64,000 nt of DNA from Flavobacterium johnsoniae UW101 (GTDB taxonomy: Bacteria > Bacteroidota > Bacteroidia > Flavobacteriales > Flavobacteriaceae), in contig NC_009441.1 in NCBI RefSeq assembly GCF_000016645.1, positions 4,898,001-4,962,000 on the forward strand. Direction: 5' to 3'. The position numbers and the translations under genes were made by a program. The first letter of the stretch is position 1. Each line of letters starts with the position of its first letter. Below the pieces are notes generated by a model, which was not told the origin of the DNA, ran no database searches, and worked only from the letters and a program-made list of their open reading frames with translations. Below are positions 21,791 to 64,000 of this stretch, one piece after another.

Positions 21791-21809
21791 TTTTACTCTT
21801 TTTAAAGTT

Positions 21810-26600: not shown

Positions 26601-27031
26601 ATTTCAGTAGTTGACCAAACTATTTTCTGCATTGACATTTCTGGTGTAATCCACGGACCACCTGCAACGGCAAATCCGTCTGCTCCATGAAAAGCTAGTT
26701 TTAACCCCAAACGATCTGCTTCTTTAAAAGCCCAATGAATCATATCCCAAAATTCAGGCGTCAATTGTAAAACCGGCGGATCTATCAATGGCGGATTTGC
26801 TGGCCCTTTAATAGTCATTAAATAAGCTCCTGCAATCCCAGCTTGTTTCATCGCTTCTAAATCGGCCGTAATTCCGGGTTTAGAATACGCCGATTTCATC
26901 CAATACCAATACACCCAAGGTTTCGAGGATTCTAATGTTGGCTGAAAGTTGGTTTCTTTTTTATGAACTTCCTGTGCAGAGACAATGCTTGCTAAAAGTA
27001 GTATAAAAAAGAGGTGTTTTTTTTGAAACAT
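23642..27031 (-). CDS. Secreted GH106 alpha-L-rhamnosidase
   Basis: 1129 aa with a signal peptide (residues 1-19, cleavage VSA|QE). The N-terminal barrel carries the GH106 hallmark WVYWYWMKSAYSKPGITADL (about 38-58) and the LEAMKQAGIAGAYLM block, HGADGFAVAGGPWITPEMS, and later HFDSWECGSQNWS, where acidic residues expected for catalysis lie (about residue 445-452). The C-terminal third contains beta-sandwich domains, including a jelly-roll near the end (WLDLGEISNIAEIKINGKDC). GH106 enzymes remove L-rhamnose from rhamnogalacturonan I or II. The length matches the family (about 1,100). It follows the GH2 gene on the same strand. Confidence 0.92.
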   Translation of the reverse strand: MFQKKHLFFILLLASIVSAQEVHKKETNFQPTLESSKPWVYWYWMKSAYSKPGITADLEAMKQAGIAGAYLMTIKGPANPPLIDPPVLQLTPEFWDMIHWAFKEADRLGLKLAFHGADGFAVAGGPWITPEMSMQKIVWSTTEILGGKKVTSKLPVPAHYKDYYKNIATFAIPIKEYEITSQMQLPKVTTSNNTDASFLADPKKDENFKFADAGWIQYEFAQPFTCKSIVIETKGRDFQAQRLIVEVSDDGVNFRFHERMIAPRHGWQDMDFPNTHTITPVTAKYFRFVCDPKGTEPGAEDLDFAKWKQNLKVSKITLSNQSLINNYEGKSGAIWRLTPQTTEKEIPNSDAFKKSEIINISNFVDADGNLNWKAPKGKWKILRMGHTSTGHENATGGAGKGLEVDKFNPELIRFQLDHWFGEAVRSAGPELTSKVLEILHFDSWECGSQNWSSVFQTEFKKRRGYDLVEYLPVMAGIPVESADFSEKVLYDIRKTIADLVADNFYGTIAQIAKEYNVKLSAENVAPVVTSDALLHYKYVDYPSGEFWLKSPTHDKPFDMVDAISGGHIYGKDIIQAESFTALRMDWDEHPGNLKTTADRNYALGINRLFYHVFVHNPWTDRKPGMTLDDIGTFFQRDQTWWKPGKAWFDYCQRVQFQLQKGKPIIDLAVFSGEDFPSRSFVPDRLVPFIPNVFGKERLESEKIRLENEGQPTAKMPKEVTYSKNITDLSQWINPLNGYQYDSFNADVLINRAKVINGKISFEGGIEYGALFFPGSHKMAPNKMLSLASAEKILQLLKDGATIFVDEKPNLQPGVQSEADQKKWQNVIDEIWNNTNSATWKIGKGTVIKLPYLGNDFASIGISQDVYFTNLNRVDSETLAWAHRKSDTEDIYFISNQKAEKRTFDASFRILGKVPQWYNPVTDKTSALDNWKIENGRTIVSITLDANESGFVMFKEETKEILAKGRSSEFEKVQTLDENWKLQFDTEFKGPKEVVKINKLFDWSTSENDQIKYYSGTVVYKKEFIWKGKDSSKTWLDLGEISNIAEIKINGKDCGALWTFPFKTDISKALQKGKNTIEIKVTNTWANRLIGDQKLPKEERLTWTTAPFRLEGEPLLKAGLLGPVIIVKEK

Positions 27032-49586: not shown

Positions 49587-50777
49587 ATGAAATTTATCAA
49601 TAGTTCAAAAGCAGTTGTTGTAAGTCTTTGTGCTTTTTCGTTTCTACATTCAAATGCGCAGACTAACAAAGAGGAAAAATCACTAATCAGCACCAAAGTT
49701 TTTACTGACGGCACCAACCATTGGTACCACATTAAAGATAAAACGAATATCGTAAATCCGATTCCAAATCAGCCTCAATATGCTGAAACGGATTATGCGA
49801 AAATCGCTGATAATATTTTGCTTTTTCAGCGTAATAATGGCGGATGGCCAAAGAATTACGATATGAAAGCAATTCTGACTCCAAAGCAAATCGATACGGT
49901 TATTAAAACAAAACCAATTCTGCATACAACTTTTGACAATGAAACAACTTACACACATGTCAATTATCTGGCTCAGGTTTATACTTTGACCAAAGACGCT
50001 AAATATAAAGACGGCGCGTTAAAAGGAATTGATTTTATCATGGAAGCTCAATACGGCAACGGAGGCTGGCCTCAATATTATCCACTGGAAAAAGGGTACA
50101 GCCGACATATTACATTTAATGACGGCGCTTATATGGGCATCATGAATCTTTTGAAAAAGATTGTAAACAATGATCCTGATTTTGAATTTATTGATATTAA
50201 AACCCGAAAAAAAGTAACGGCGTCTTACGAAAAAGGCATTGATTGTATTTTAAAAATGCAGATTAAAGAAGATGAAAAATTAACCGCCTGGTGTCAGCAG
50301 CATGATGAAATTACGCTTTTACCAGCGTGGGCACGAAAATTTGAACCGCCAAGTATCTGTAATGCAGAAAGTGTTGATATTGTACTGTTTTTAATGGCAA
50401 TCGATAATCCGAATGAAAAAATAATTGCTTCGGTGCAAGGTGCTGTAAAATGGTTTCAGGATTCTAAAATTTACAATACAAGGGTTGAAAGTTTTCAGGC
50501 TCCGGAAATGGAATCTAAATACAAAAAAATCACTAATGATGTTCGTGTAGTAACTGATACTGCTGCACCGCCAATCTGGACGAGATATTACGAATTAGGA
50601 ACTCATAAACCTTTATTCTCAGATAGAAACAGTGAACTTTTGTATTCGCTTGCAGAAGTAAGCCGAGAGCGCAGAAGCGGTTATGCATGGTATACGGATA
50701 AACCGGAAAAAGCATTGAAAAAATATCCGGCCTGGCAGAAGAAATGGGATTCTGGAAATGATGTTTTGAAGAACTAG
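49587..50777 (+). CDS. pelA-like: Secreted pectate lyase, polysaccharide lyase family 10
   Basis: 396 aa with a Sec signal (residues 1-24, cleavage SNA|QT). The PL10 (alpha/alpha) toroid is marked by RNNGGWPKNYDM (82-93), FDNETTYTHVNYLA (116-129), AQYGNGGWPQYYP, RHITFNDGAYMGIMNLL, WCQQHDE and the C-terminal ERRSGYAWYTDKPE. The conserved Asp and Arg/Lys residues of the active site lie in the NDGAY and later segments. Known reaction: beta-elimination of polygalacturonate, calcium dependent. It lies 13 bp after GH28; the combination of hydrolase and lyase gives saturated and unsaturated oligogalacturonides. The gene ends at a dispersed repeat (50779-50873), where transcription probably stops. 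Confidence 0.95.
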   Translation: MKFINSSKAVVVSLCAFSFLHSNAQTNKEEKSLISTKVFTDGTNHWYHIKDKTNIVNPIPNQPQYAETDYAKIADNILLFQRNNGGWPKNYDMKAILTPKQIDTVIKTKPILHTTFDNETTYTHVNYLAQVYTLTKDAKYKDGALKGIDFIMEAQYGNGGWPQYYPLEKGYSRHITFNDGAYMGIMNLLKKIVNNDPDFEFIDIKTRKKVTASYEKGIDCILKMQIKEDEKLTAWCQQHDEITLLPAWARKFEPPSICNAESVDIVLFLMAIDNPNEKIIASVQGAVKWFQDSKIYNTRVESFQAPEMESKYKKITNDVRVVTDTAAPPIWTRYYELGTHKPLFSDRNSELLYSLAEVSRERRSGYAWYTDKPEKALKKYPAWQKKWDSGNDVLKN

Positions 50778-51085: not shown

Positions 51086-51922
51086 TTATTGATTCAAATT
51101 ATAAAACGAAACTGCATTTTCAAACCAAATTTTATTCTGGTCTTCGATAGAAAATTTCGAAATATAATCTTCTAAAGTTTTCACAACCTCATTATAATCA
51201 GAAGCTACATTTAGAACCGGCCAATCTGAACCGTATAGTATTTTATCTGTTGGGAAATTTTCAAAAATTACATCCAAGTACGGTTTTAAATCTTCTGGTT
51301 TCCAGTTTTTCCAGTCGGCTTCTGTGACCATTCCAGAAACTTTACACCATACATTATTGTATTTTGCAATTTCTTCTATACCGCTTTTCCATGAATCTAT
51401 AATGCCTGATTTAATATCTGGTTTTGCAATATGATCTATTACAAACTTTTGGTTTGGAAAATCTTTTACCAAACTTATCGCTGCTGGTAACTGACGATGA
51501 AAAATCAAAATATCATACGTAAAATCAAACTCTTTTAAAGCCGAAATTCCGTTGCGGAAATCTTCTCTAAACATAAAATCATCGGCTTCACCTTGTACAA
51601 CATGTCGGAATCCTTTAATGGTTTTATTCGAAGAAAAATGACGCAACCGATCTGAAATATTATCTGCACGAAGATCAACCCAGCCTACGATTCCTTTTAT
51701 AAAATCATTTTTTGAAGCCAGATCTGCAAGAAAATGGGTTTCATGTTCAGACTGACTTGCCTGAACTGCTACACAACCCGAAAACTTGTTTTCTTTAAGC
51801 AGAGGCAATAAATCTTCCGGAAGGAAATCTCTTTGAATTTTCGACATACTTTCATCAATCCAGCTGTCTCTAACGGGATCAAATTTCCAAAAATGCTGAT
51901 GAGAATCAATTCGGTTATTCAT
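51086..51922 (-). CDS. Amidohydrolase-2 family sugar-acid lactonase (L-fucono/L-rhamnono-lactonase-like)
   Basis: 278 aa, cytoplasmic, no signal. It has the TIM-barrel metal-site start RIDSHQHFWKFDP (about 4-16), AVQASQSEHETHFLADLA, FVIDHIAKPD and the C-terminal YGSDWPVL with the conserved Asp (about 233). These are the hallmarks of the COG3618 family, which includes L-fuconolactonase. It lies 6 bp downstream of an SDR gene, so a dehydrogenase-lactonase pair opens an oxidative, non-phosphorylating route for a 6-deoxy-hexose. Both L-fucose and L-rhamnose versions exist, and the rhamnosidases and GH95/GH141-like genes in the window leave both open. Confidence 0.87.
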   Translation of the reverse strand: MNNRIDSHQHFWKFDPVRDSWIDESMSKIQRDFLPEDLLPLLKENKFSGCVAVQASQSEHETHFLADLASKNDFIKGIVGWVDLRADNISDRLRHFSSNKTIKGFRHVVQGEADDFMFREDFRNGISALKEFDFTYDILIFHRQLPAAISLVKDFPNQKFVIDHIAKPDIKSGIIDSWKSGIEEIAKYNNVWCKVSGMVTEADWKNWKPEDLKPYLDVIFENFPTDKILYGSDWPVLNVASDYNEVVKTLEDYISKFSIEDQNKIWFENAVSFYNLNQ

Positions 51923-51928
51923 CCTGAA

Positions 51929-52726
51929 TTAGTTTACATCGTTGATTAAAGCACGATCTAAATGCACGTAACCGCCATCTACAAAAACAAATTGTCCTGT
52001 AGTATGAGATGAACGATCAGAAATAATAAAAAGAGCCGTATCTGCAATTTCTTCTGTTTTGGTCATTCTGCCTTCAAACGGAATACTTTTGTTGATTTTC
52101 TTTAGAACGGTTTCTCCATCTGCCAAAGTTTTAATCCAGTCTTCGTATGCAGGAGTATAACTTTCAGCAATAATAATAGCATTAGAACGAATTCCGAATT
52201 GGATTAAATCTACCGCCCATTCTCTTGTAAGTCCTAAAACGCCGCCTTTTGCTGCAGCATAACCAGAAGTTCCGCCCTGCCCTGTTAAAGCTACTTTTGA
52301 ACCAATATTTAAGATATTTCCTTTTGATTCTTTTAAGTACGGGAGCGCGTATTTAACCAGTAAAAAGTAACTTACTACATTCAGTTTTAAAGAATCCATA
52401 AATTCCTCGTAAGAAGCATCCAAACCTGCGCCGTCGTTTACACCAACATTGTTGATGACAGCGTCGATTCTTCCGTATTTTGCCACAATTGTTTTAACCG
52501 CATTTTCGATTTCTACAGGATCAGTTACATCTGTCTGCACAAATAAAGAATCAATTCCTCTTTTTTGGAAAGCTTCCGCGTAAGCGAAACCTCTTGCATT
52601 TCTATCAACCAAAACCGGAATCGCACCTTCGTCTGCAATTCGGTTAATAATTGTTTCTCCAATACTGCCTTCCTTTCCAGCTGAACCGGAAACAACGACA
52701 ATTTTATTTTTTAAATTTAAATCCAT
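51929..52726 (-). CDS. SDR-family sugar 1-dehydrogenase (L-fucose/L-rhamnose dehydrogenase-like)
   Basis: 265 aa. The classical SDR fold has a cofactor loop (SGSAGKEGSIGE, 13-24) that is longer than the usual TGxxxGxG, an NNVG motif (92-95), Ser143, and the catalytic Tyr156-Lys160 (YAAAK). The C-terminus (TGQFVFVDGGYVHLD) is family-standard. It belongs by pattern to sugar dehydrogenases that make the 1,5-lactone. It shares an operon with the lactonase downstream (6-bp gap). Expected role: oxidation of a free deoxysugar with NAD(P) as the first intracellular step. The unusual glycine loop could change cofactor preference. Confidence 0.87.
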   Translation of the reverse strand: MDLNLKNKIVVVSGSAGKEGSIGETIINRIADEGAIPVLVDRNARGFAYAEAFQKRGIDSLFVQTDVTDPVEIENAVKTIVAKYGRIDAVINNVGVNDGAGLDASYEEFMDSLKLNVVSYFLLVKYALPYLKESKGNILNIGSKVALTGQGGTSGYAAAKGGVLGLTREWAVDLIQFGIRSNAIIIAESYTPAYEDWIKTLADGETVLKKINKSIPFEGRMTKTEEIADTALFIISDRSSHTTGQFVFVDGGYVHLDRALINDVN

Positions 52727-52763
52727 TTTCGTGGTTATTAAAGTTTAATAATAGTTAGATTTT

Positions 52764-52903
52764 TTAAACACATAGAAACATAGATTTTAAAACCGCTCAA
52801 AGGCGTTTCACTTGCATAAATACACATAGCTATGTGTTAAGAAACTAGTTTCTTTTTATTCTCTTTTAAAAACAATAAAAATCTATGTTTCTATGTGTTT
52901 AAA
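52764..52903. repeat. Dispersed palindromic repeat family A, copy 3
   Basis: A complete 140-bp copy with perfect terminal arms (AACACATAGAAACATAG / CTATGTTTCTATGTGTT), internal AAAGGCGTTTCACTTGC and the central ACACATAGCTATGTGT palindrome. It lies directly upstream of the SDR gene. Confidence 0.9.
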
Positions 52904-52915
52904 ATTTTTACAGCA

Positions 52916-53026
52916 TTTTTGCCATCCTGACGAAGGAAGGATCTCCGCGAGAAGCTCCATCTAGAAATTCGACAATCTTTGTAGAGTTTCTTGCGAAGAT
53001 TTCTCCTTCGTCGAAATGACAAACAG
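52916..53026. repeat. Dispersed palindromic repeat family B, copy 8
   Basis: About 110 bp: diverged left arm (GCCATCCTGACGAAGGAAGG) and canonical right arm CTCCTTCGTCGAAATGAC. With family A copy 3 it fills the whole 317-bp gap between the SDR gene start and the end of the zinc dehydrogenase gene; no gene or obvious promoter box remains visible there. Confidence 0.82.
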
Positions 53027-53043
53027 TACTTTACAATATACTC

Positions 53044-54057
53044 TTAATCTATCTCAATTAACGCTTTGATTACATTGTTTTTAGGATCAATTAATTGTCC
53101 AAAATCAGTAATCATTTCTGAGAAACTTGTTCTGTGCGTAATGTATTTTTTAGGATCTATTTTACCTTCTTTCAAGCATTTCATTACATATTCAAAATCT
53201 TCAATAGTGGCATTTCGGCTGCTCATTAAAGTAGATTCTCTTTTATGAAAATCAGGATGACTGAAACTCAATTCACCTTTTTGAAGCCCCACTAAAACAA
53301 ATCTTCCGCCATGCGAAATATAATTGAAAGCACTGTTCATTACTTTTTGGTTTCCTGTAGCATCAATTACCACATTTGCCATATCACCGTTTGTCAATTC
53401 AGCCAATTTTGCGGCTACATCATCGTTTAACGGATTGATGGTTTCATCGGCATTCAATTCGGTTTTACAGAAATTTAATCTGTAATCGTTGATATCCATT
53501 ACGATCACTTTTGCTCCGGCAATTTTAGCAAACTGAATCAGTCCAATTCCAATTGGCCCTGCTCCCATTACCAAAACCGTATCAGTTGACTTAACAGCCG
53601 CTCTTCGTACTCCGTGCGCAGCAATTGCCAATGGTTCAACCAAAGCCAGTTCATCATAATCTAATCCCTGACCGTGAAGTAAATATTGTTCCGGAATCGA
53701 AACATATTCGGCCATTCCGCCATCAATATGAACTCCAAAAACTTTGATATTTACACAGCAGTTTGTTAATCCGTTTCGGCAGGCAACACAAGTTCCGCAG
53801 TTGAAATATGGAATAAAAGTTACTTTATCGCCCGGTTTAAAACCTGCAGCATTTCCTTTTACATATTCTGCTGCCAATTCGTGACCCAGAATTCGAGGAT
53901 ATTCAAAATACGGCTGGGTTCCGCCAAAAGCATGAATATCAGTTCCACAGATACCAATTCTTTTTATTTTTAAAAGAACCTCACCTTCTTTTGGTTCGGG
54001 AATTTCTTTTTCTTTTAATTTAAATTCCTGCGGTTTTTCGCATACAATAAATTTCAT
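53044..54057 (-). CDS. Zinc-dependent medium-chain alcohol/polyol dehydrogenase
   Basis: 337 aa from the ATG at 54057; the frame extends to 54144 only by reading into a family A repeat. The fold is MDR: catalytic zinc ligands Cys37 (GICGTD) and His59-Glu60 (GHEL), a structural zinc site of four Cys (87, 90, 93, 101, in FNCGTCVACRNGLTNCC), and a GAGPIG nucleotide loop. The closest functional classes are sorbitol, threonine, galactitol and L-fuco/L-idonate dehydrogenases. Its place between the sugar dehydrogenase and the FAH hydrolase suggests oxidation of a sugar acid at C4 or C5, perhaps as an alternative to the SDR at 55275. The substrate is not fixed by sequence. Confidence 0.9.
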   Translation of the reverse strand: MKFIVCEKPQEFKLKEKEIPEPKEGEVLLKIKRIGICGTDIHAFGGTQPYFEYPRILGHELAAEYVKGNAAGFKPGDKVTFIPYFNCGTCVACRNGLTNCCVNIKVFGVHIDGGMAEYVSIPEQYLLHGQGLDYDELALVEPLAIAAHGVRRAAVKSTDTVLVMGAGPIGIGLIQFAKIAGAKVIVMDINDYRLNFCKTELNADETINPLNDDVAAKLAELTNGDMANVVIDATGNQKVMNSAFNYISHGGRFVLVGLQKGELSFSHPDFHKRESTLMSSRNATIEDFEYVMKCLKEGKIDPKKYITHRTSFSEMITDFGQLIDPKNNVIKALIEID

Positions 54058-54103
54058 CTTTGATTTTTTTAAAACTAACTCGTAGGGTACAATTCGTTTT
54101 TTT

Positions 54104-54247
54104 TTTAAACACATAGAAACATAGATTTTTTCCTTTTTAAACAAGAAAACTAAAATAAATGATACATCATTTACACATAGCTATGTTTGTTAATGCAAGT
54201 GAAACGTCTTTTTAGATAAACAAAATCTATGTTCCTATGTGTTTAAA
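54104..54247. repeat. Dispersed palindromic repeat family A, copy 4 (inverted orientation)
   Basis: A 144-bp copy with the same terminal arms, but the internal word appears as GCAAGTGAAACGTC, the complement of the core seen in copies 1-3, so the element sits in the opposite orientation. Confidence 0.88.
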
Positions 54248-54271
54248 AAATTATGCCCAACGACTTAATAA

Positions 54272-55126
54272 TTACTTTTTATATGCAACTGCAGTCTGTT
54301 TGCTTGTTCCCAAACCTTCAATTCCAAGTTCTACAACATCGCCTGCTTTCAAATAAATTGGATCTGGTTTAATACCCAAACCAACTCCCGGAGGCGTTCC
54401 TGTACTAATGATATCGCCAGGAAGCAAAGTCATAAACTGACTTAAGTAGTGTACTAAATAAGGAATTTTGAATACAAGGTTTAAAGTATTACTGTCTTGG
54501 TATTTTTTACCGTTTACGCTTAACCACATCGATAAATTATCAACATCTTTTACTTCATCTTTCGTAGCCAAAAATGGCCCAAGAGGTGCAAATGTATCGC
54601 ATCCTTTTCCTTTTGCCCATTGTCCGCCGCGCTCGATTTGAAATTCTCTTTCGCTGTAATCATTCAATAATGCATAACCTGCAACATAGTCTAAAGCTTC
54701 TGCTTCTTCAACATAACTTGCTTTTTTGCCTACTACAAATGCCAGCTCCACTTCCCAGTCGGTTTTTACACTGTTTTTAGGGATAATTACATCATCATCC
54801 GGTCCGCATAAAGAAGTTGTTGATTTAAAGAAAATAATTGGTTCTGTAGGGATTGGAGCATTGGTTTCTTTACAGTGATCCACATAATTTAATCCGATAC
54901 AGATTATTTTTGAAGGTCTCGCAACCGGAGATCCCAAACGTATACTCGCATCAACTTCTGGCAAAGAAGGATTGCTTTCTAATGCTTTTTGTAATTTTTC
55001 TAAACCATTATCTTCAAAAAAGCTTTCGTTAAAGTCTGAAACGATAGAAGAAACATCATATCTTTTTTCATTAATTAAAACTCCTGGTTTTTCTTTTCCG
55101 ATTTCTCCAAAACGTATTAATTTCAT
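54272..55126 (-). CDS. FAH-family hydrolase (2,4-diketo-3-deoxy-L-fuconate/rhamnonate hydrolase-like)
   Basis: 284 aa, cytoplasmic. It has an N-terminal small domain (1-65) and the FAH core with CIGLNYVDHCKETNAPIPTE, the metal ligands in DWEVELAFVV (Glu-x-Glu, about 128-133) and NDYSERE (Asp, about 158), KGCDTFAPLGPF, and STGTPPGVGLG. These enzymes cleave C-C bonds of diketo acids; members in deoxysugar loci split 2,4-diketo-3-deoxy-L-fuconate or -rhamnonate into pyruvate and L-lactate. Lactonase and dehydrogenase neighbours support that role. Fumarylacetoacetate, homoprotocatechuate or ureidoglycolate activities are family alternatives, but no aromatic or purine pathway genes are nearby. Confidence 0.87.
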   Translation of the reverse strand: MKLIRFGEIGKEKPGVLINEKRYDVSSIVSDFNESFFEDNGLEKLQKALESNPSLPEVDASIRLGSPVARPSKIICIGLNYVDHCKETNAPIPTEPIIFFKSTTSLCGPDDDVIIPKNSVKTDWEVELAFVVGKKASYVEEAEALDYVAGYALLNDYSEREFQIERGGQWAKGKGCDTFAPLGPFLATKDEVKDVDNLSMWLSVNGKKYQDSNTLNLVFKIPYLVHYLSQFMTLLPGDIISTGTPPGVGLGIKPDPIYLKAGDVVELGIEGLGTSKQTAVAYKK

Positions 55127-55134
55127 TTTCTTAT

Positions 55135-55274
55135 ATATTTTAATTATTATTTTTTAGGTTCTAAGGTGCTGAGAGGCTAAGGTTCTAAGTTTTTTTTTAG
55201 AGGTACTAAGCGGCTAAGATTCTAAGTCGCTGAGCTTTTTCTTAGCACCTTAGTATCTTAGAACCTTAGCACCT
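55135..55274. repeat. Low-complexity palindromic spacer (GGTTCTAAGGTGCT words)
   Basis: The spacer consists of short related words (GGTTCTAAGGTGCTGAGAGG, GTACTAAGCGGCTAAGATTC) on the left and their complements (TTAGCACCTTAGTATCTTAG, AACCTTAGCACC) on the right, giving one long imperfect hairpin. No gene is seen. A cousin lies at 62822-62955. Confidence 0.7.
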
Positions 55275-56039
55275 TTAATTATTTAACTTAATAAATCCTC
55301 CGTCGATTGGGTAATCGCATCCGGTGATAAATCCAGCTTCTTCACTGCATAAGTATAAAGCAAGAGCGGCAATTTCGTCTGGTTTTCCCATACGTCCTAT
55401 TGGCTGTGATTTAGAAAGTTTATCGAACATTTCTTCTTCTTTTCCAGCGTAATTTTTAGAAATAAATCCGTCCACAAAAGGCGTGTGAACTCTTGCCGGA
55501 GAAATAGAATTACATCTTATATTTTCACTTAAATAATCTCTCGCTACTGACAAAGTCATCGCCATAACAGCGCCTTTTGCAGTTGAATACGCAAAACGAT
55601 CTGAGATTCCAACCCACGCCGCAATTGACGCCATGTTTAAGATTACACCGCCATTTGAAAGTCGGAATTGTGGGATCGCTGCAAACAAACAGTTGTAAAC
55701 TCCTTTTACATTTACATCCATTACACGGTCAAAATCAGCTTCAGAAGTCGTGTCAACTTTACCAACATTTGCGATTCCGGCGTTATTGATTAAGATATTT
55801 ATATTTCCGATCTTTTCGAAAGTTGCCTTAACATCAGCTTGGCTGGAAACATTACAGGCATACGAAAAAACGTTTCCTCCTGCATTTTTAATTTCTTCAA
55901 CAGCATCCTGTGCACTTTCAATAGATAAATCAATAATATGAACTTCTGCTCCCTGTTTGGCAAACAAGGCCGCAATTGCTCTTCCAATCCCGCTTCCGCC
56001 TCCTGTTATAACTGCTTTTTTATTTTGTAATGAAAACAT
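55275..56039 (-). CDS. SDR-family oxidoreductase (2-keto-3-deoxy-L-fuconate dehydrogenase-like)
   Basis: 254 aa. It is a classical SDR with GGGSGIG (13-19), NNAG (85-88), Ser138, Tyr151 and Lys155 (YSTAK), and the C-terminal YPIDGGFIKLN. Its pattern is close to the NAD-dependent 2-keto-3-deoxy-L-fuconate 4-dehydrogenase (UcpA/HumDH2-type), which yields the diketo acid split by the FAH enzyme encoded next. It is the first gene of the minus-strand catabolic run. A LacI-type palindrome overlaps a TACATTTG box (56130-56123) 84 bp upstream, so sugar-responsive repression is likely. Confidence 0.88.
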   Translation of the reverse strand: MFSLQNKKAVITGGGSGIGRAIAALFAKQGAEVHIIDLSIESAQDAVEEIKNAGGNVFSYACNVSSQADVKATFEKIGNINILINNAGIANVGKVDTTSEADFDRVMDVNVKGVYNCLFAAIPQFRLSNGGVILNMASIAAWVGISDRFAYSTAKGAVMAMTLSVARDYLSENIRCNSISPARVHTPFVDGFISKNYAGKEEEMFDKLSKSQPIGRMGKPDEIAALALYLCSEEAGFITGCDYPIDGGFIKLNN

Positions 56040-56363
56040 TTTAAATGGTATTTAGTATTATAGAATTCAAATTAAGGCTTCGAACATCTTCTCATGAATA
56101 ATAAATGTAAAAAGCACAATTACAAATGTAATCGATTAAAACAATATTTGCATTTTATTTTTATACTAATATAATAAAATGATCATTCTTTAATAAATTA
56201 TAACATTTTTTATTCGCTTTGTAAAAAAACTAGCCTAGTTTAAAAGTTTTATCAAAAAAATCAATGTAAAAAGTTACATTTTCTTGCCTAATTCAATCTT
56301 ATTTCTAATTTTGTAATTGTAATTTTTACATTTATTATTTTCCATACACATAAATCAATACCA
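56040..56363. other. Divergent control region of the catabolic operons
   Basis: The 324-bp AT-rich gap between the divergent SDR and solute-binding-like genes has no coding potential. The operator at 56127-56140 lies near its left third. The right half is poly-A/T rich and may hold the plus-strand promoter; AATATTTG at 56143-56150 is one base from TAnnTTTG. Confidence 0.65.
56123..56140 (-). promoter_or_regulatory. LacI-type operator overlapping a -7 box
   Basis: TGTAATCGATTAAA (plus strand, 56127-56140) differs by one base from the perfect palindrome at the GH28 promoter. On the minus strand it overlaps TACATTTG (56130-56123), a consensus TAnnTTTG box directed at the SDR gene. It could also control the plus-strand operon that starts at 56364. 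Confidence 0.6.
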
Positions 56364-57512
56364 ATGGCAGTATTAAAAGGCATAACGTGGAATCATACAA
56401 GAGGTTTATTACCAATGGTTGCAACGGCACAACGCTTTACCGAATTAAATCCTGATATCGAAATTACCTGGGAGAAAAGAAGTTTACAAGAATTTGCAGA
56501 TGCTTCTATCGAAGACTTAGCAAAAAGATTCGATTTATTGGTAATCGATCACCCGTGGACAGGTTTTGGCGCACACACAAAAGCGATTCTTCCTTTATCT
56601 GATTATCTTCCGGCTGACTATATTAAAGATCAGGAAATAAATACTGTAGGCAAATCATACGGAAGTTATGTTTTCAGTAATAAATTATGGGCTCTGCCAA
56701 TCGATGCTGCTACTCCGGTTGCTGCGGCACGTTTGGATATTTTAGAAAAAAAGGGGCTTGAAGTTCCTCAAACATATGATGATTTATTGGCTTTAGCCAA
56801 AAAAGGACTGGTTGCCTTTGCAGGAATTCCTGTTGATGTTTTGATGAGTTTTTATATGTTTTGCTGTAGTTTAAGCGAAGCTCCGTTTCAGTCTGAAGAA
56901 AAAGTTATTTCTGTAGAAACAGGAAAAAAAGCTTTGCAGATGTTTCGCGAACTGGCTCAATTAATCGATCCGAAGAATTTTAACCGAAACCCAATTCAGG
57001 TTTACGAAGCAATGGTTAATACAGATGAAATTGCCTACTGCCCTTTTGCTTACGGATATTCTAATTATTCAAGAGCCGGATACAGCAAAAACCTGCTTCA
57101 TTTTTATGATTTGGTTAAGCTGAATAATGCACCTATGATAAGTTCTCTGGGCGGAACAGGATTGGCTGTTTCATCTTTCAGTAAACATATTCCTGAAGCG
57201 ATTCGTTATGCTGAATTTACAGGATCGTCACAAGTACAGCAGAATATTTTTGCCGATAACGGAGGTCAGCCGGGACATTTACAAGCCTGGAAAAACGACC
57301 GAATCAATTCTATAACTAACAATTATTTTAAAAATACTTTACCGGCTTTAGAAAGGGCTTTTTTAAGACCAAGATATTCCGGACACATGTATTTTCAGGA
57401 TCATGCGGGCGATGTAGTTCGTGATTATTTAATGAACGGCGGTGACGAAGAACTTGTTTTAGATGCATTAAATGCGCTTTATGCTAAATCTTTAAAACTG
57501 CAAAATTCATGA
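56364..57512 (+). CDS. Solute-binding-protein-fold protein without signal peptide
   Basis: 382 aa. The pattern matches family 1 ABC sugar-binding proteins (strand 1 KGITWNHTRGLLPMVATAQRF, then FTELNPDIEITWEKRSL, DLLVIDHPWTGFG, LWALPIDAATPVAAAR, and MISSLGGTGLAVSSFSKHI), but the first strand begins within five residues of the Met, so there is no room for a signal peptide or lipobox and no ABC permease or ATPase gene is near. The protein should be cytoplasmic. Its stop overlaps the start of a class III CoA-transferase gene (ATGA, 57509-57512). It may bind a sugar acid or its CoA ester for the enzyme, or have become an enzyme itself. That role is inference; I know of no characterised example. 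Confidence 0.8.
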   Translation: MAVLKGITWNHTRGLLPMVATAQRFTELNPDIEITWEKRSLQEFADASIEDLAKRFDLLVIDHPWTGFGAHTKAILPLSDYLPADYIKDQEINTVGKSYGSYVFSNKLWALPIDAATPVAAARLDILEKKGLEVPQTYDDLLALAKKGLVAFAGIPVDVLMSFYMFCCSLSEAPFQSEEKVISVETGKKALQMFRELAQLIDPKNFNRNPIQVYEAMVNTDEIAYCPFAYGYSNYSRAGYSKNLLHFYDLVKLNNAPMISSLGGTGLAVSSFSKHIPEAIRYAEFTGSSQVQQNIFADNGGQPGHLQAWKNDRINSITNNYFKNTLPALERAFLRPRYSGHMYFQDHAGDVVRDYLMNGGDEELVLDALNALYAKSLKLQNS

Positions 57513-58651
57513 AACCATTAGAAGGATTAATTGTATTAGAGTTCTGCCAGTTTTTGGCGGGTCCTTCTGCCGGATTAAAGTTAGCCGATTTAGGCGCGAG
57601 AATTATTAAAATTGAACGTCCCGTAAAAGGCGAAGCCTGCCGACAATTAAGCATCAAAGATCTTTTTGTGGATGACAGCAGTCTTTTGTTTCACACAATT
57701 AACAGAAACAAAGAATCTTTTGCAGCCGATTTAAAAAATCCTGATGATTTAGTTTTAATTAAAAAACTAATCGAAAAAGCTGATATTATGACGCATAATT
57801 TCAGGCCAGGTGTAATGGAAAAAATCGGTTTAGATTTTACTGCATCACTTGCGATTAATCCAAAAATAATATACGGAACCATAACAGGTTACGGCGATAA
57901 AGGTCCTTGGGCAAAAAAACCGGGACAAGATTTGCTTTTACAGTCACTCTCTGGCTTAAGCTGGCTGAGCGGACGAAAAAGTCAGGGCCCAGTTCCATTT
58001 GGTTTGGCTGTCGCCGATTTAATGTGCGGGAATCATTTCGTACAGGGAATTTTAGCCGCATTATTAAAAAGAGCCAAAACCGGAAAAGGCGTTTTGGTTG
58101 AAGTGAGTTTACTGGAATCTATTTTGGATGTTCAGTTTGAAGCAATTACTTCTTTCTTAAATGATGGCGGGCAACAACCGGAACGAGGCGATATTAAAGG
58201 AAGCGCACACGCTTTTTTAAGCGCGCCTTACGGAGTTTATAAAACACAAGACGATTATATTTCGCTGGCAATGGGCGATTTACTTTTTATAGGAAATACA
58301 CTTGGAGTCGATTTAAATCAATATGCAGCTAAACATCTCTGGTTTGAAAAAAGAGATGAAATCAGAATTCTTTTAGCCGATAAATTAGCAGAACAAAAAG
58401 CAGATTATTGGTTAGAATTGCTTCAAAAACAAGGTATTTGGGCAGGAAAAGTTCTCAATTATGAAACTTTAGACCAACAGCAATTTGTTAATGAATTACA
58501 CTTAAAACAAACCGTAAAAAATTCTGACGGCGAAACTTTGATTACAACCCGAAGTCCAATTCAGCTTGACGGTAAAATTTTAAGCAGCACAAAAGCAGCT
58601 CCAAAAGTGGGCGAAGATAATGCAGTAATACACAAAGAGTTTATTCAGTAA
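57509..58651 (+). CDS. Class III (CaiB/BaiF) CoA-transferase, copy 1
   Basis: 380 aa. It has the family start MKPLEGLIVLEFCQFLAGPS, LADLGARIIKIERP (26-39), [40 protein letters not shown] and the catalytic Asp at position 170 (GLAVADLMCG), which carries the mixed anhydride/CoA intermediate in known members. Its length is slightly below typical (about 400). It overlaps the upstream binding-protein gene by four bases and is a paralogue of the CoA-transferase at 58793, with the same catalytic residue number. Known reaction: transfer of CoA between carboxylic acids. In a sugar-degradation operon this suggests a sugar-derived acid is handled as a CoA thioester, a step absent from the standard fucose and rhamnose routes. 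Confidence 0.9.
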   Translation: MKPLEGLIVLEFCQFLAGPSAGLKLADLGARIIKIERPVKGEACRQLSIKDLFVDDSSLLFHTINRNKESFAADLKNPDDLVLIKKLIEKADIMTHNFRPGVMEKIGLDFTASLAINPKIIYGTITGYGDKGPWAKKPGQDLLLQSLSGLSWLSGRKSQGPVPFGLAVADLMCGNHFVQGILAALLKRAKTGKGVLVEVSLLESILDVQFEAITSFLNDGGQQPERGDIKGSAHAFLSAPYGVYKTQDDYISLAMGDLLFIGNTLGVDLNQYAAKHLWFEKRDEIRILLADKLAEQKADYWLELLQKQGIWAGKVLNYETLDQQQFVNELHLKQTVKNSDGETLITTRSPIQLDGKILSSTKAAPKVGEDNAVIHKEFIQ

Positions 58652-58792
58652 ACTGTTGAATCTTTGAATAGTTGATTCGTTTAATCGTGTTGAACAAAAC
58701 GACGAATTAACGAATTAACGATTAAACAAATACAACGATTAAACAAATACAACGATTAAACGAATAAACAACAAAAACGGTTAAACAAAAAA
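58652..58792. repeat. AT-rich array of ACGATTAAAC words
   Basis: The 141-bp spacer between the two CoA-transferase genes contains TTGATTCGTTTAATCGTGTT on the left and four near-tandem copies of ACGATTAAACAAATA-like units on the right, partly complementary. It has no gene and may form a hairpin within the transcript. Confidence 0.65.
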
Positions 58793-59929
58793 ATGAAACC
58801 CTTAGAAGATTATTTAATAGTAGATTTTAGTCAGTTTCTTTCGGGTCCTTCGGCGAGTCTCCGCTTGGCCGATTTAGGCGCACGCGTTATAAAAATTGAA
58901 AAACCGGGAACTGGCGATATCTGCAGAACCTTATATACTTCTGACTTAATCATGAACGGCGAATCGTCTGTTTTTCATACCATAAACAGAAATAAAGAAT
59001 CGTTTGCCATAGATTTTAAACAGCCGGAAGAACTTCAAAAATTAAAAAAATTATTGGCAAAAGCCGATGTTGTCATGCACAATTTCAGACCAGGCGTTAT
59101 GGAACGCATTGGTTTAAGTTATGATGATGTAAAAGCGATAAATCCTACGGTGGTTTACGCTTCGATTTCTGGTTTCGGGAATCATCCTGAACTTAAAGAT
59201 TTACCGGGACAAGATTTGTTATTACAATCTTTAACGGCTTTAACCTGGCTGAGCGGCAATCAGGAAGACGGTCCTGTGCCAATGGGATTGTCAATTGTTG
59301 ATATGCTTGCGGGCGCGCATTTAGCACAAGGAATTTTAGCCGCTTTATATCGAAAAGCATCACAAAATATTGGCGGAACGGTTCAGGTAAGTATGCTCGA
59401 ATCTGCTTTTGATTTTCAGTTTGAAACGATTACCACTTTCTTTAATGACGGCGGTGAACTTCCTGTTCGTACCAAAACCAATAATGCACATGCTTATTTG
59501 GGCGCTCCTTACGGAATTTACGAAACTAAAAACGGTTATCTGGCTCTGGCAATGGGATCAATTCCCGTTTTGGCTTCATTGCTTAAATGTGATGAATTGT
59601 TACAATTCCCGGAAAATAAATTTACGCTTAGAGACGAAATTAAAAATATTCTGGCTTCTCACCTATTGACACAGGAAACCCAGTTTTGGCTGGATATTTT
59701 AGAACCTGCTGACATTTGGTGTGCGGGAGTTTTAAACTATGAACAGCTTTTCAAAGAAGACGGTTTTAAAGTTTTAGAATTTACGCAGCAAGTCGAAATG
59801 CTCGACGGCTATTCGTATAAAACAACAAGATGTCCTATAAAAATCGACGGCGAATACTTTACATCGACTAAAGGTTCTCCAAAATTAGGACAGGATAACG
59901 AGCGAATTATAAAAGAATTTATAGCATAG
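58793..59929 (+). CDS. Class III (CaiB/BaiF) CoA-transferase, copy 2
   Basis: 378 aa, alignable end-to-end with the enzyme at 57509: [72 protein letters not shown] and Asp170 in [10 protein letters not shown]. The divergence is spread along the length, so the two genes are not a fresh duplication and probably have separate tasks or form a heterodimer, as class III enzymes are interlocked dimers. It is followed after two bases by a second solute-binding-fold gene; the first pair has the opposite order. The acid substrate is unknown. Confidence 0.9.
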
Positions 59930-59931
59930 AT

Positions 59932-61158
59932 ATGGAAAAATTTAGAATCGCTGTTAGAAAATTTTCTCCTTTTGAAAGTACGCTGCAAAAGCTGTGGGAT
60001 AACTTCTGTCTGAAAAATAATATTCAGATTGAGGTTGAAATGATTCCGCTTGAATTGCACGATCTTTATGAAGAAACCATTACCAATAAAGGTTTAAAAA
60101 CCGGAAAATGGGATATCGCACACCTAAATACCGATTGGATTTTTGATGCTGCAAATGAAAAAGCGGTTCTGGATTTAACTTCTTTTATTAACCAAAACCC
60201 GCCTCAGGATTATCCCGAAGGCTGGCATCAATCGCTGTTAAACCTGCAGCATATTAATGGCAGTATTTACGGACTTCCGTTTCACGACGGCCCGGAATGC
60301 CTTATTTACAGAAAAGATTTATTTGAAGATGTAACTGAAAAAGAAAACTTCAAGAAACAATTTGGTTACGAATTGTTCCCTCCAAAAAACTGGGAGCAAT
60401 TCACCCAAATTGCTTCGTTTTTTAATAGGCCCGAAAGTAATTTATCCGGCTGTGTTTTCGCCAATTATCCTGACGGTCATAATATGGTTTTTGATTTCTG
60501 CCTGCAGTTATGGACTCGCGGCGGTTCTCTTTTAGATCATCAAAACAAAATAAACATCAATCATAATCAAGCAGTTAAAGCTTTAGATTATTATAGAAAA
60601 ATCGTTAACAATACAAATGCAGTTCATCCGGGTTCAAAGAATTTTGGTTCTGTTGAAGCTGGAATGGCTTTCGCCGAAGGACAGGCTGCAATGGCAATTA
60701 ACTGGTTTGGATTTGCTTCTATGTGTGAAGTAATTGAGGAATCGAAAGTAAAAGGCAAAGTTGACATTACTGAATTACCGCACGATGAAAACCACAAAAC
60801 GGCTTCATTAAATGTGTATTGGCTTTATACTATTGGCATTGGAAGTAAAAATAAAGCACTCGCGTTTGACTTTTTGCGATTTGCTACAACTGCCGAAAGC
60901 GATAAATTATTGACAACCGAAGGCGGGATTGGATGCAGAAAATCAACCTGGAATGATGCCGAAATCAATAAAACGATTCCCTATTATCATAAACTGGAAA
61001 TGCTGCATGAAAACGCTTTGACTTTGCCGCAAACGCCAATTTGGCCAAAAGTGGCAGAATTGATAGATCAAATGGTTTTAAAAGCGATTGAAACAGATAT
61101 TCCGTCGGAAAAACTTTTAGAACAAACACAGGAAAATATTGAAAAACTAACGAATTGA
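59932..61158 (+). CDS. Second solute-binding-protein-fold protein without signal peptide
   Basis: 408 aa. It has the family 1 binding-protein pattern: first strand FRIAVRKFSPFE at residues 4-15, DIAHLNTDWIFDAANEKAVL, INGSIYGLPFHDGPECLIYR (about 104-123), AFAEGQAAMAINWFG and a conserved VYWLYTIGIGSKNK segment. Like its counterpart at 56364 it starts directly in strand 1 with no signal peptide, and no membrane transporter of the ABC type is encoded. It lies two bases after a CoA-transferase gene, so translation is coupled. The two binding-fold proteins share fold but little sequence, suggesting different ligands. The cytoplasmic location is a prediction from the missing export signal. Confidence 0.8.
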   Translation: MEKFRIAVRKFSPFESTLQKLWDNFCLKNNIQIEVEMIPLELHDLYEETITNKGLKTGKWDIAHLNTDWIFDAANEKAVLDLTSFINQNPPQDYPEGWHQSLLNLQHINGSIYGLPFHDGPECLIYRKDLFEDVTEKENFKKQFGYELFPPKNWEQFTQIASFFNRPESNLSGCVFANYPDGHNMVFDFCLQLWTRGGSLLDHQNKININHNQAVKALDYYRKIVNNTNAVHPGSKNFGSVEAGMAFAEGQAAMAINWFGFASMCEVIEESKVKGKVDITELPHDENHKTASLNVYWLYTIGIGSKNKALAFDFLRFATTAESDKLLTTEGGIGCRKSTWNDAEINKTIPYYHKLEMLHENALTLPQTPIWPKVAELIDQMVLKAIETDIPSEKLLEQTQENIEKLTN

Positions 61159-61193
61159 TTAGAACTGATCAATAAACTTAAAATAGCACAAAA

Positions 61194-62252
61194 ATGAATA
61201 TTCCATATAAACCTTTACTGCCCGAAACCAAACAGCCCATTATCATTATCGGCGCAAGCGGTATTGTAAAAGATGCGCACCTGCCTGCTTACAAAATGGC
61301 TGGTTTTACAGTTTTTGGCATTACAAACAGAACGATTGCAAAAGCACATGATTTAGCCAAAGATTTTGAAATTGAATATGTTTTTGAAAATGTAGCAGAA
61401 GCCGTAAAAAATGCGCCTTCAAATGCGGTTTACGACATTACTGTTTTACCGGATCAATATATCGAAATATTGGAGCAATTGCCAGATGGTGCTGCGGTTT
61501 TGATCCAGAAACCAATGGGAAATGATTTGGCTCAGGCCAGAGAAATTGTAGAAGTATGCGAAAGAAAAAACCTTGTTGCAGCGATCAATTTTCAGCTTCG
61601 TTTTTCGCCTTTTGTCAGCGCTGCGAGATATTTAATTAACGAAGGATTGATTGGCGATTTATACGATTTTGAATTTAAAGTAACGGTAAATACGCCGTGG
61701 GAATTGTTTCCGCTGATTAAGGAACATCCTAGATTGGAAATTCTTTTTCATAGTGTTCACTATATCGATTGCATACGTTCGTTTATGGGAAATCCTAAAA
61801 GTGTGATGGCAAAAACAGCCAAACATCCGCTTAAAAAATTGTCATCGAGCCGTTCTACGATTATTTTAGATTATGGCGAAGACAAACATGTGGTGATCAA
61901 TACAAATCACGATCATCATTTTGGACCAAATCATGAAGAAAGCTATATAAAATGGGAAGGCACAAAAGGCGCTATTAAAGCCAAAATGGGACTATTAATG
62001 AATTATCCTGACGGACTTCCTGACATTTTTGAATATGCGATTGAGGATGAAAAAGGCCAGTACGAATGGAAAAAAGTAAACCTTGAGGGTTCATGGTTTC
62101 CAGAAGCCTTTATAGGAACGATGTCTAATTTAATGCGCTTTAAAGAAGGCTCGGATTCTAAATTATTGGCAAGCGTTCAGGACGTTTTAGATACCATGAA
62201 GGTCGTTGAAGCCTGCTATATCAGTAACACAAACGGAGGAATTTTAATTTAA
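61194..62252 (+). CDS. Gfo/Idh/MocA-family oxidoreductase
   Basis: 352 aa, cytoplasmic. The Rossmann start is IIIIGASGIVKDAHLPAYKM (16-35), with GASGIV in place of the usual GxGxxG. VLIQKPMGND replaces the EKP motif with QKP. The C-terminal domain contains the family's HSVHYIDCIRSFMGNP region with a conserved His. The family acts on sugars, inositols and related compounds with NAD(P). It lies 35 bp after the second binding-fold gene, so it belongs to the same operon. It may oxidise the substrate before CoA transfer or reduce a keto product. The different glycine motif could weaken or alter cofactor binding. Confidence 0.87.
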   Translation: MNIPYKPLLPETKQPIIIIGASGIVKDAHLPAYKMAGFTVFGITNRTIAKAHDLAKDFEIEYVFENVAEAVKNAPSNAVYDITVLPDQYIEILEQLPDGAAVLIQKPMGNDLAQAREIVEVCERKNLVAAINFQLRFSPFVSAARYLINEGLIGDLYDFEFKVTVNTPWELFPLIKEHPRLEILFHSVHYIDCIRSFMGNPKSVMAKTAKHPLKKLSSSRSTIILDYGEDKHVVINTNHDHHFGPNHEESYIKWEGTKGAIKAKMGLLMNYPDGLPDIFEYAIEDEKGQYEWKKVNLEGSWFPEAFIGTMSNLMRFKEGSDSKLLASVQDVLDTMKVVEACYISNTNGGILI

Positions 62253-62374
62253 GTCTTAAAGTCAAAAGTCGAAAGTCTTAAAGTTTCGTTTATTAAACTT
62301 TACAACTTTCGACTTTCGACTTTGGACTTTCGACTTTCGACTTTCGACTTTACAACTTTCAAACTAAAAAATAT
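62253..62374. repeat. Array of CTTTCGACTTT / AAAGTCGAAAG words
   Basis: The spacer contains AAGTCAAAAGTCGAAAGTC on the left and about five tandem CGACTTT units on the right, complementary to the left part, so it folds as a long hairpin within the operon. Confidence 0.7.
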
Positions 62375-62815
62375 ATGTATTTCAAATCAACATTTTTTGA
62401 AGATTATCAACTTGAAGATAAAAGAGTTACATTAGGCAGAACCATTACAGAAACAGATTTTGTGGTTCATGCCGGACATACGGGAGATTTTTTCCCGCAT
62501 CACATGGATGAAGAATGGTGTAAAACACAGCCATTCGGACAGCGTATTGCGCACGGAACTATGGTTTTTGCCATTGGTATCGGCTTGACAGCATCAGAAA
62601 TAAATCCTGAAGCTTTTTCAAGAGGATACGACAAAATGCGTTTTGTAAAACCGGTTCATATTGGCGATACAATCCATTCTGAAATTACAATTTCTGAAAA
62701 AGGCGAAGCCAAAAATCCAGAAATGGGAACCGTAACAGAACATGTCGAAATCATTAACCAAAGAGGTGAAGTGGTTTTGGTATGTGATCATCTTCTTTTG
62801 GTCAAAAAGAAATAA
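62375..62815 (+). CDS. MaoC-like hydratase/dehydratase
   Basis: 146 aa, a single hotdog-fold domain of normal length for the family. The hydratase-2 motif appears as [16 protein letters not shown] (33-48), with Asp38 and His43 in the expected acid/base places, then [17 protein letters not shown] and a [16 protein letters not shown] strand. MaoC-type enzymes add water to, or remove it from, enoyl-CoA thioesters (for example mesaconyl-CoA hydratase). With the two CoA-transferases it supports a CoA-thioester branch for a sugar-derived acid in this operon. The substrate is unknown. It precedes the FucP-like transporter gene by 156 bp. Confidence 0.9.
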
Positions 62816-62971: not shown

Positions 62972-64000
62972 ATGCAAGTAACAAACCAAACAGGCGATCT
63001 TCACGAAGTGCCAAACGAAGGCGGAAAAACCAACTATCTTCTGCCATTTATTTTAATTACCAGTTTATTTTTCCTTTGGGGAATGGCGCATAATCTGGAT
63101 TCTATTTTAATTCCGCATTTAAAAAAGGCGTGTGAATTAAACAACCGTCAGTCGACATTGATTGATACTTCGGTGTTTTTTGCTTATTTTATAATGGCGA
63201 TTCCTGCGGGAATGCTCATTAAACGATTTGGTTATAAAAACAGTATTATTACCGGATTATTAGTTTTTGCAGCGGGAGCATTTTTATTCGTTCCAGCAGC
63301 CAATACCAGAACCTATGAATTGTTTTTATTCGCTTTATTTGTAATTGGATGCGGCTTAACAATTTTAGAAACAAGTGCCAATCCGTATGCAGCAATTTTA
63401 GGCCCTGCTGAATCTTCTTCTAAAAGACTGAATTTAGCGGCTTCTTTCAACGGATTAGCAGCTATGGTAGCTCCAATTGTGGGTTCTCTATTTATACTTT
63501 CCGGAAAAAATCATACTCCGGAGCAAATGGCAGCAATGCCGGAAGCTGAAAAAGCATCGTATTTATTAGGCGAAGCTGCTGCTGTAAAAATGCCTTATAT
63601 CATTTTAGGAAGTGTATTGGTTATAGTGGCGATTATATTCTACTTTATGCATTTACCTTCGATGAAACCACAACATACTGAAGCCGAAGTAAAACCGGGA
63701 TTTTTCTCTGTTTTAAAGTTTCGCCATTTAAGCTGGGCAGTTGTAGCACAGTTCTTTTATGTAGGTGCACAGGTTTGCATTACGAGTTTTTTTATTAGAA
63801 TTGCACAGCAGGGTGCTCATTTAGACGAAAAAACAGCTGGATATTATCTTGGTATTTATGGCTTCTTGTTTATGGCAGGACGTTTTATTGGTACTTTCTT
63901 CTTGAAGTTTGTAAAAGATTACACATTGCTTTCTATTTATTGTGCTGCAAGTATCATACTTTGTTTGTTAGCGATTTACGGAACCGGAATTGTAGTTATT
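62972..64000 (+). CDS. fucP-like: FucP-like MFS sugar:proton symporter (partial, C-terminus off the window)
   Basis: 343 codons from the ATG at 62972 to the right edge with no stop. FucP features are clear: LLPFILITSLFFLWGMAHNL (helix 1), HLKKACELNNRQSTLIDTSVFF with its conserved acidic residue, YFIMAIPAGMLIKRFGYKN, and GCGLTILETSANPYAAILGP with the conserved Glu-Thr-x-x-Asn-Pro motif. About ten helices are present in the visible part. Known members import L-fucose; homologues in Bacteroidetes also take up glucose, galactose or N-acetylglucosamine. Its position at the end of the plus-strand operon makes it the likely uptake system for the sugar used by both divergent catabolic operons. Confidence 0.93.
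   Translation, partial: MQVTNQTGDLHEVPNEGGKTNYLLPFILITSLFFLWGMAHNLDSILIPHLKKACELNNRQSTLIDTSVFFAYFIMAIPAGMLIKRFGYKNSIITGLLVFAAGAFLFVPAANTRTYELFLFALFVIGCGLTILETSANPYAAILGPAESSSKRLNLAASFNGLAAMVAPIVGSLFILSGKNHTPEQMAAMPEAEKASYLLGEAAAVKMPYIILGSVLVIVAIIFYFMHLPSMKPQHTEAEVKPGFFSVLKFRHLSWAVVAQFFYVGAQVCITSFFIRIAQQGAHLDEKTAGYYLGIYGFLFMAGRFIGTFFLKFVKDYTLLSIYCAASIILCLLAIYGTGIVVI

Follow-up and report, generated by a model that had tools for sequence, protein, structure and literature searches.

A signal-less solute-binding-fold protein and class III CoA-transferases as a widespread, putatively cytosolic unit in Flavobacterium johnsoniae and other bacteria

Textbooks present solute-binding proteins as receptors outside the cytoplasm. 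Those of family 1 that bind sugars, such as the Thermococcus trehalose/maltose-binding protein (TMBP, 1eu8), T. maritima MalE3 (6dtq) and SmoF (7ofy), share PF01547/PF13416 and a near full-length fold with two proteins, here called SBP1 and SBP2, encoded in a 64,000-nucleotide stretch of Flavobacterium johnsoniae UW101 (NC_009441.1, positions 4,898,001 to 4,962,000, forward strand; hereafter the window). Unlike those receptors, SBP1 and SBP2 have no signal and no sugar permeases in the genome, and are paired with a metabolic enzyme, to which SBP1-type proteins are sometimes fused. This enzyme is a class III CoA-transferase (CoAT), which shares the full-length PF02515 domain and the catalytic Asp column with succinate-hydroxymethylglutarate CoA-transferase (9br6, 4ed9) and YfdE (4hl6); no described binding-protein partner of class III CoA-transferases was found in one open-licence library. 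We consider it rather likely that SBP1 works in the cytosol as a single functional unit with its class III CoA-transferase or transferases, in which it would either present a sugar-derived acid to the transferase for CoA-thioester formation or gate the transferase. The genes concerned lie in one row of the window:

SBP1, 56364..57512, + strand: signal-less family-1 (PF01547) solute-binding-fold protein, 382 aa
CoAT1, 57509..58651, + strand: class III CaiB/BaiF (PF02515) CoA-transferase, 380 aa, Asp170 at the catalytic column
CoAT2, 58793..59929, + strand: class III CoA-transferase, paralogue of CoAT1, 378 aa, Asp170
SBP2, 59932..61158, + strand: second signal-less family-1 solute-binding-fold protein, 408 aa
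Gfo, 61194..62252, + strand: Gfo/Idh/MocA family oxidoreductase, 352 aa, putative sugar dehydrogenase
MaoC, 62375..62815, + strand: MaoC-like hydratase/dehydratase, 146 aa
FucP, 62972..64000, + strand: L-fucose:H+ symporter family, extending beyond the window end, 431 aa in total

The non-phosphorylative diketo-hydrolase pathway for L-fucose/L-rhamnose has in common with this locus the L-fucose dehydrogenase, lactonase-like, SDR and FAH genes and FucP; in contrast to that pathway, no aldonate dehydratase was seen in the window cluster, and to our knowledge CoA enzymes do not belong to its textbook form. A deoxyribonate route in Klebsiella michiganensis has been proposed to pass through the CoA thioesters deoxyribonyl-CoA and glyceryl-CoA, with a CoA-transferase in the cluster, a CoA synthetase as the activating enzyme and a thiolase for cleavage, and the available part of that account does not mention a binding protein (PMC6365646). 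Sugar-acid CoA thioesters would be common to that route, as far as it is described there, and to the SBP1-CoAT unit, whereas the activating enzyme differs (PMC6365646). No paper on the SBP1-CoAT unit was found in one open-licence library; an account elsewhere is possible, since its novelty rests on that library. Judged from sequence, the unit of signal-less binding-fold protein and class III CoA-transferase is widespread, and no description of it was found.

In predicted models, the first beta-strand begins at residue 2 of SBP1 and residue 3 of SBP2, and neither frame in the window could begin earlier at an ATG, GTG or TTG, which agrees with the earlier note's reading of both proteins as signal-less and starting in their first strand. 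The 24 open codons 5' of the window SBP1 ATG would translate as a hydrophobic stretch with no ATG, GTG or TTG inside, and those upstream of SBP1 in loci L024, L028 and L029 would likewise read hydrophobic; in the close relatives L025, L026, L027, L030 and L031 a stop lies no more than 20 codons from the first-strand motif. Over 98 loci, an in-frame stop was found within 30 codons of that motif in 82 of 99 SBP1 frames. For SBP2 the motif was fitted in 15 of 24 frames, 11 of these with a stop within 30 codons, and the remaining nine start 4-8 residues before the first strand. As a positive control, all eight importer receptors of the same plasmid loci showed hydrophobic N-termini (peak 1.83-2.77); SBP1 peaked at 0.22-1.14 from annotated plasmid starts (n = 9 proteins) and at no more than 1.36 when cut back to the motif (n = 98). 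The missing signal peptide is, on this sequence evidence, a family trait of SBP1; signal peptides in homologues, which the earlier note had thought might undo its reading, were absent from most frames examined.

Both binding proteins score above the PF01547 cut-off of 26 bits (SBP1 48, SBP2 90.1 bits) and also match PF13416. When their predicted structures were compared with solved structures by VIA-align, solute-binding proteins made up all 50 of the matches listed for the SBP1 model, the top ones liganded, so that in the model SBP1 retains the complete two-lobed sugar-binding-protein fold. Its invariant D62 and R335 align with an Asp and an Arg of the Thermococcus trehalose/maltose-binding protein, residues that we take to contact the sugar there. 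In the 6.1-Mb genome, SBP1 and SBP2 are the only PF01547 genes and CoAT1 and CoAT2 the only PF02515 genes. The sole PF00528 permease is MetI, beside MetN and MetQ about 129 kb before the window, and there is therefore no family-1 sugar importer for SBP1 or SBP2 in the genome; the earlier note had seen no ABC permease or ATPase encoded. With neither signal peptide nor permease in this genome, SBP1 is very unlikely to be an importer receptor; it keeps the complete two-lobed fold, and a sugar-derived acid formed in the cell is its most likely ligand.

The SBP1/CoAT1 junction is a 4-bp overlap and CoAT2 and SBP2 are spaced by 2 bp, the coordinates bearing out both distances claimed previously. Among 395 Bacteroidota genomes, SBP1 was found in 19 and CoAT2 in the identical 19, with two CoAT matches each; SBP2 was found in 13, all among these 19. 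The co-occurrence of SBP1 and CoAT2 exceeds chance, the independence probability (9e-33 by genome, 4e-15 by genus) disregarding shared ancestry and serving as a ranking, not a p-value. The order SBP1-CoAT1-CoAT2 is contiguous in 17 of the 18 other SBP1-positive Bacteroidota genomes, the exception being G286, where CoAT1-CoAT2-SBP2-Gfo-MaoC stay together about 61 kb away from SBP1. A scan of named genomes with the SBP1 alignment recovered at least 510 relatives, and in the best 80 loci, which were analysed, a CoAT adjoins SBP1 in 59 and lies no more than 9 kb away in 67; a 4-bp overlap is the most frequent junction (33 cases). The phyla of these 80 loci are Bacteroidota, Bacillota, Pseudomonadota, Chloroflexota and Acidobacteriota. 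SBP1 relatives also occur on 145 plasmid records; 15 of these loci were opened, three lacking a gene table, and in the other 12 a CoA-transferase is directly beside SBP1 in 11 and one gene off in L253. In S. meliloti the SBP1 relative was observed in strain 2011 and the CaiB gene beside it in strain ml46. The pairing is thus not peculiar to this genome, a possibility that the earlier note had named as one that would refute its reading.

The surroundings of the unit vary. Importers near it differ (FucP, RhaT, TRAP and ABC systems with their own receptors), and ABC transporter genes alongside, which had been named as a possible objection, do occur in some clusters outside Bacteroidota, but together with the importer's own signal-bearing receptor. 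MaoC or a crotonase is usually present as well, crotonase taking the place of MaoC in Microbulbifer, G182, S. meliloti and Pseudosulfitobacter, and being recognised by Pfam ECH_1 in L036 and L239; an exchange of this kind fits thioester chemistry. SBP1 appears to evolve together with CoAT: in 62 loci, the distance correlation between SBP1 and CoAT2 (0.905) is the highest of the six pairs among SBP1, CoAT2, Gfo and MaoC, the other five ranging over 0.69-0.80; these values are descriptive and have no null model.

A query in which SBP1 was joined to CoAT1 matched 271 proteins, and among the 120 matches listed there were six SBP1-CoAT fusions of 760-797 aa, all with the binding domain N-terminal and no evident signal. 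The safest are P0239 and P0240, which are 64% identical over their full length, come from different data sources and have a linker without methionine; P0198 and P0199 are 79% identical and have the same domain order. Two others were set aside as proof of fusion, P0228 because its junction appears frameshifted and P0238 as uncertain. A search with P0239 (90 matches) returned no SBP1-CoAT fusion besides P0240, so this type is rare. The fusions, as read from sequence, support a physical unit, and unfused SBP1 and CoAT may form a corresponding complex.

The same 120 matches were dominated by CoAT-CoAT tandems (114, within P0121-P0237; 95 CoAT1-CoAT2 and 19 CoAT2-CoAT2), under names that include Hymenobacter, Pelagicoccus and Planctomycetota. 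Such tandems suggest a two-domain or two-subunit enzyme. In this the CoAT1 and CoAT2 pair resembles benzylsuccinate CoA-transferase BbsEF (9fn0), which has two class III subunits; in contrast to BbsEF, if its subunit details are as we take them to be, CoAT1 and CoAT2 both keep the catalytic Asp. The two are 51% identical to each other and match PF02515 over its full length (299 and 296.8 bits, cut-off 23.3). The Asp170 column, presumably catalytic by the class III motif, is kept in 71 of 71 CoAT1 and 85 of 85 CoAT2 sequences (above 350 bits, 340-430 aa). Both score far under every NCBIfam equivalog cut-off listed, and their substrate is therefore not assignable by these models. In the majority of Bacillota loci examined the CoAT is a single copy and of the CoAT2 type. 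MaoC matches PF01575 (77.5 bits), is near the solved structure 4ffu (210.5 bits) and retains D38 and H43, which we take to be the MaoC Asp/His dyad.

The earlier note had treated the two binding-protein/CoAT pairs as equals, and this did not hold: SBP1-CoAT is the conserved unit and SBP2 is less constant than SBP1, its position being held by an Amidohydro_2 gene in other lineages (in Flavobacterium a lactonase-like gene lies nearby on the opposite strand). Same-strand runs were counted over 98 loci, 17 being left out for having no CoAT in the run; of the 81 remaining, 46 contain the amidohydrolase, 21 SBP2, 14 neither and none both. This exclusion was rejected as evidence of interchangeability, as it is not significant: the tree requires just 5 and 7 changes, with 3 independent pairs.

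Several observations weigh against a joint SBP1-CoAT unit. In 13 of the 80 loci no CoAT was present in the stretch examined; six of these 13 genomes have one elsewhere and seven do not, five of the seven being near-identical Sediminibacterium-like metagenome-assembled genomes of 1.9-2.6 Mb. In the only one of these that was scanned (L167), SBP1 has as neighbours genes for an aldo-keto reductase, an enolase-family protein, a sodium symporter, PhyH and a UxuA-like protein. If these five assemblies are complete, SBP1 therefore works without this CoAT in one clade, which keeps enzyme and sensor roles for SBP1 alive. The congener G206 (L072) has the fucose/pectin cluster, Gfo and FucP and lacks exactly SBP1, CoAT1, CoAT2, SBP2 and the neighbouring MaoC, a 404-bp gap with no detectable remnant marking the position; the unit is dispensable there, because the fucose genes, Gfo and FucP persist without it. 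By the longest frame, a possible start lies at least 15 residues before the motif in 12 of the 99 SBP1 frames, and while the hydrophobic peak is below 1 in nine of these, it reaches 2.28, 1.63 and 1.5 in L209, L028 and L212, where a leader is possible because of these values. Fusions of overlapping genes can also arise from assembly error, and the P0228 junction resembles one.

The alternative that survives best, though we think it unlikely, is that SBP1 is itself an enzyme, its binding fold having gained catalysis and acting on the same intermediate, either ahead of the CoA-transferase or following it. The chorismate dehydratase MqnA is said to be such a case, a binding-protein fold with acquired catalysis. 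Conservation of SBP1 is enzyme-like (averaged over 35 sequences of several phyla, column identity is 62%, and many polar residues are invariant), and its median identity between Bacillota and the others (52%) is near that of CoAT2 (56%) and MaoC (61%) and above that of SBP2 and Gfo (35% each); further, the amidohydrolase replacing SBP2, the other binding protein, belongs to an enzyme family, and SBP1 occurs without CoAT in the clade noted above. However, no catalytic motif was identified in SBP1, and its liganded structural matches and its D62 and R335 argue for binding. Less probable again is a cytosolic sensor, in which binding of the sugar acid or a product would toggle the CoA-transferase with no substrate handover. 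The two-lobed fold, the fusion and the overlap with CoAT would suit it, as does the distant SBP1 of G286, still inherited with CoAT, but IclR, AraC and LacI regulators found in many loci could sense instead.

Ordinary importer receptors, with wrong start codons or unconventional secretion and feeding a distant ABC importer, are a very improbable explanation. Both proteins match PF01547/PF13416, named SBP1 relatives (the nearest named being Flavobacterium) are annotated as ABC transporter substrate-binding proteins, SBP2 is 22-28% identical to importer receptors in alphaproteobacterial clusters, and the open codons before the window SBP1 would read hydrophobic; against this stand the missing upstream start and the stops in relatives, MetI as sole permease, the separate receptors of ABC-bearing clusters and the P0239/P0240 fusions. 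Hitchhiking of unrelated genes in mobile pectin blocks is equally improbable: part of the co-occurrence does come from shared ancestry (9 of 170 genera), but the pair recurs amid different importers and enzymes, stands bare on an S. meliloti pSymB, is split yet retained in G286 and fused elsewhere, and has the highest distance correlation in the same loci.

For the joint SBP1-CoAT unit, the most likely sequence of events would begin with a pectin-released 6-deoxysugar of the L-rhamnose or L-fucose type entering via FucP, RhaT, ABC or TRAP systems, to be oxidised by Gfo or an SDR and then delactonised by the amidohydrolase. SBP1 would bind the resulting intracellular acid, probably a 6-deoxyaldonate, and present it to, or gate, the CoA-transferase; the latter would form the CoA thioester, on which MaoC, or crotonase in some lineages, would add or remove water. 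The gene content of the clusters fits such an order, from import through oxidation and delactonisation to the activation of a 6-deoxyaldonate with CoA and its processing by a hydratase. The claim of a cytosolic partner in a CoA-dependent branch thus finds partial support, the fusions favouring a physical unit and the neighbours a deoxysugar. Divergent from the SBP1 row, at 51086-56039, is a set that includes L-fucose dehydrogenase, lactonase-like and diketo-hydrolase-like genes:

SDR1, 55275..56039, - strand: SDR oxidoreductase adjoining FAH, putative 2-keto-3-deoxy-deoxyaldonate dehydrogenase
FAH-family hydrolase, 54272..55126, - strand: best NCBIfam model 2,4-didehydro-3-deoxy-L-rhamnonate hydrolase, 381.5 bits, below the cut-off of 500
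Zn-dependent alcohol dehydrogenase family, 53044..54144, - strand: longest open reading frame, true start probably more internal
SDR2, 51929..52726, - strand: L-fucose dehydrogenase (NF052481, 353.8 bits, cut-off 300)
Amidohydrolase, L-fucono-1,5-lactonase-like, 51086..51922, - strand: NF052480, 250.7 bits, below the cut-off of 400

FucP is above the TIGR00885 cut-off (361.1 against 280.4 bits). The row from SBP1 to FucP is likely a single transcript; the earlier note's operon completed by Gfo, MaoC and FucP stands as a same-strand row, but gaps of 141 bp (CoAT1-CoAT2), 122 bp (Gfo-MaoC) and 156 bp (MaoC-FucP) leave one transcript only likely. By eye, two TGTAA...TTACA inverted repeats, possible operator sites, were seen 5' of SBP1 at about 56263-56335, and these may explain the resemblance of the A+T-rich upstream sequence in L024; short repetitive sequence in the gaps 58652-58792 and 62253-62374, also seen by eye, may be terminators or processing sites.

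The window also holds a large pectin-type gene cluster (GH28 at 47891-49570, pectic acid lyase at 49587-50774, GH106 at 23642-27031). Neighbours across the SBP1 loci include alpha-L-fucosidase GH29, alpha-L-rhamnosidases GH78/GH106, GH28, GH88, DUF5703, RhaT and FucP, and one neighbour, close to BPa0997 (1435.6 bits), is over the alpha-D-galacturonidase model cut-off. These glycosidases and transporters support a pectin deoxysugar context; as a guide to the exact substrate the set was rejected, rhamnose and fucose not being decided by it. An annotated L-rhamnose mutarotase occurs together with amidohydrolase, Gfo and IclR in several alphaproteobacterial clusters, and a cluster labelled Roseateles has the mutarotase, Gfo and IclR with no amidohydrolase alongside. 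A Paenibacillus radicis locus (L209:3001-5664) departs from the deoxysugar neighbours, with a RuBisCO-large-like protein and an SBD_N/NBD_C kinase 5' of GH106-like, SBP1, CoAT, MaoC, SBP2 and Gfo genes. A DUF5703_N (PF18961) protein, with no function assigned, is encoded in the pectin cluster of the window (19463-21856, - strand); relatives lie directly 5' of SBP1 in Pontibacter (L207:7457-9832) and, with one small gene between, in Rufibacter (L241:7372-9564, annotated).

A bolder extension of the joint unit, a CoA-thioester route for dehydrating sugar acids, is doubtful. Here SBP1 would load a (6-deoxy)aldonate on CoAT, MaoC or crotonase would strip the 3-hydroxyl of the aldonyl-CoA to give a 2-keto-3-deoxy thioester, and the CoA would be handed on to another aldonate, a route that would stand in for dehydratases of the enolase, UxaA or IlvD type; SBP2 would be a second repurposed binding protein, able to replace the amidohydrolase lactonase. 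The evidence is mixed. In a survey of 63 FAH-bearing loci, nine had a CoAT (eight distinct places, L040 and L129 overlapping; seven from one genus), and a GD_AH or L062-type MR_MLE gene in cis was found in none of these nine versus 27 of the 54 without CoAT (21 GD_AH, 6 MR_MLE). On the other hand, the other 27 of these 54 have no such gene either, L072, L095, L097 and L107 have neither CoAT nor a typed cis dehydratase, and a galactonate-dehydratase-like gene of another, uncounted MR_MLE group (309.6 bits, cut-off 311) lies about 4 kb past FAH in L129. G206, G118 and G387 have one GD_AH gene each and no PF13378 match at E<=1e-35. Weighing more heavily against the extension, Roseibium and Labrenzia clusters have SBP1-CoAT together with an annotated L-fuconate dehydratase, and G206 has fucose genes with no SBP1-CoAT unit and no dedicated dehydratase found. 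In F. johnsoniae the one GD_AH gene has genes for tagaturonate reductase and glucuronate isomerase as neighbours, both IlvD genes score above the cut-off of the IlvD model, and the three PF13378 matches reach at most 104.6 bits. In G206 and G118 the GD_AH gene sits in a locus arranged like the UxaA cluster of F. johnsoniae, and UxaA may therefore serve as the dehydratase in trans. As a separate observation, in Bacteroidota diketo-type deoxysugar clusters (including L073-L088) a UxaA-like GD_AH protein of about 550 aa is the commoner cis dehydratase (in 21 of the 54 FAH loci without CoAT) and an L062-type enolase-family enzyme the rarer one (6 of 54).

If the SBP1-CoAT unit acts as proposed, binding proteins would gain a cytosolic role as enzyme partners of a new kind, and sugars would have a new way into CoA chemistry. 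Annotations in several phyla would need correcting, and a hitherto unrecognised step by which pectin deoxysugars are used would come to light.

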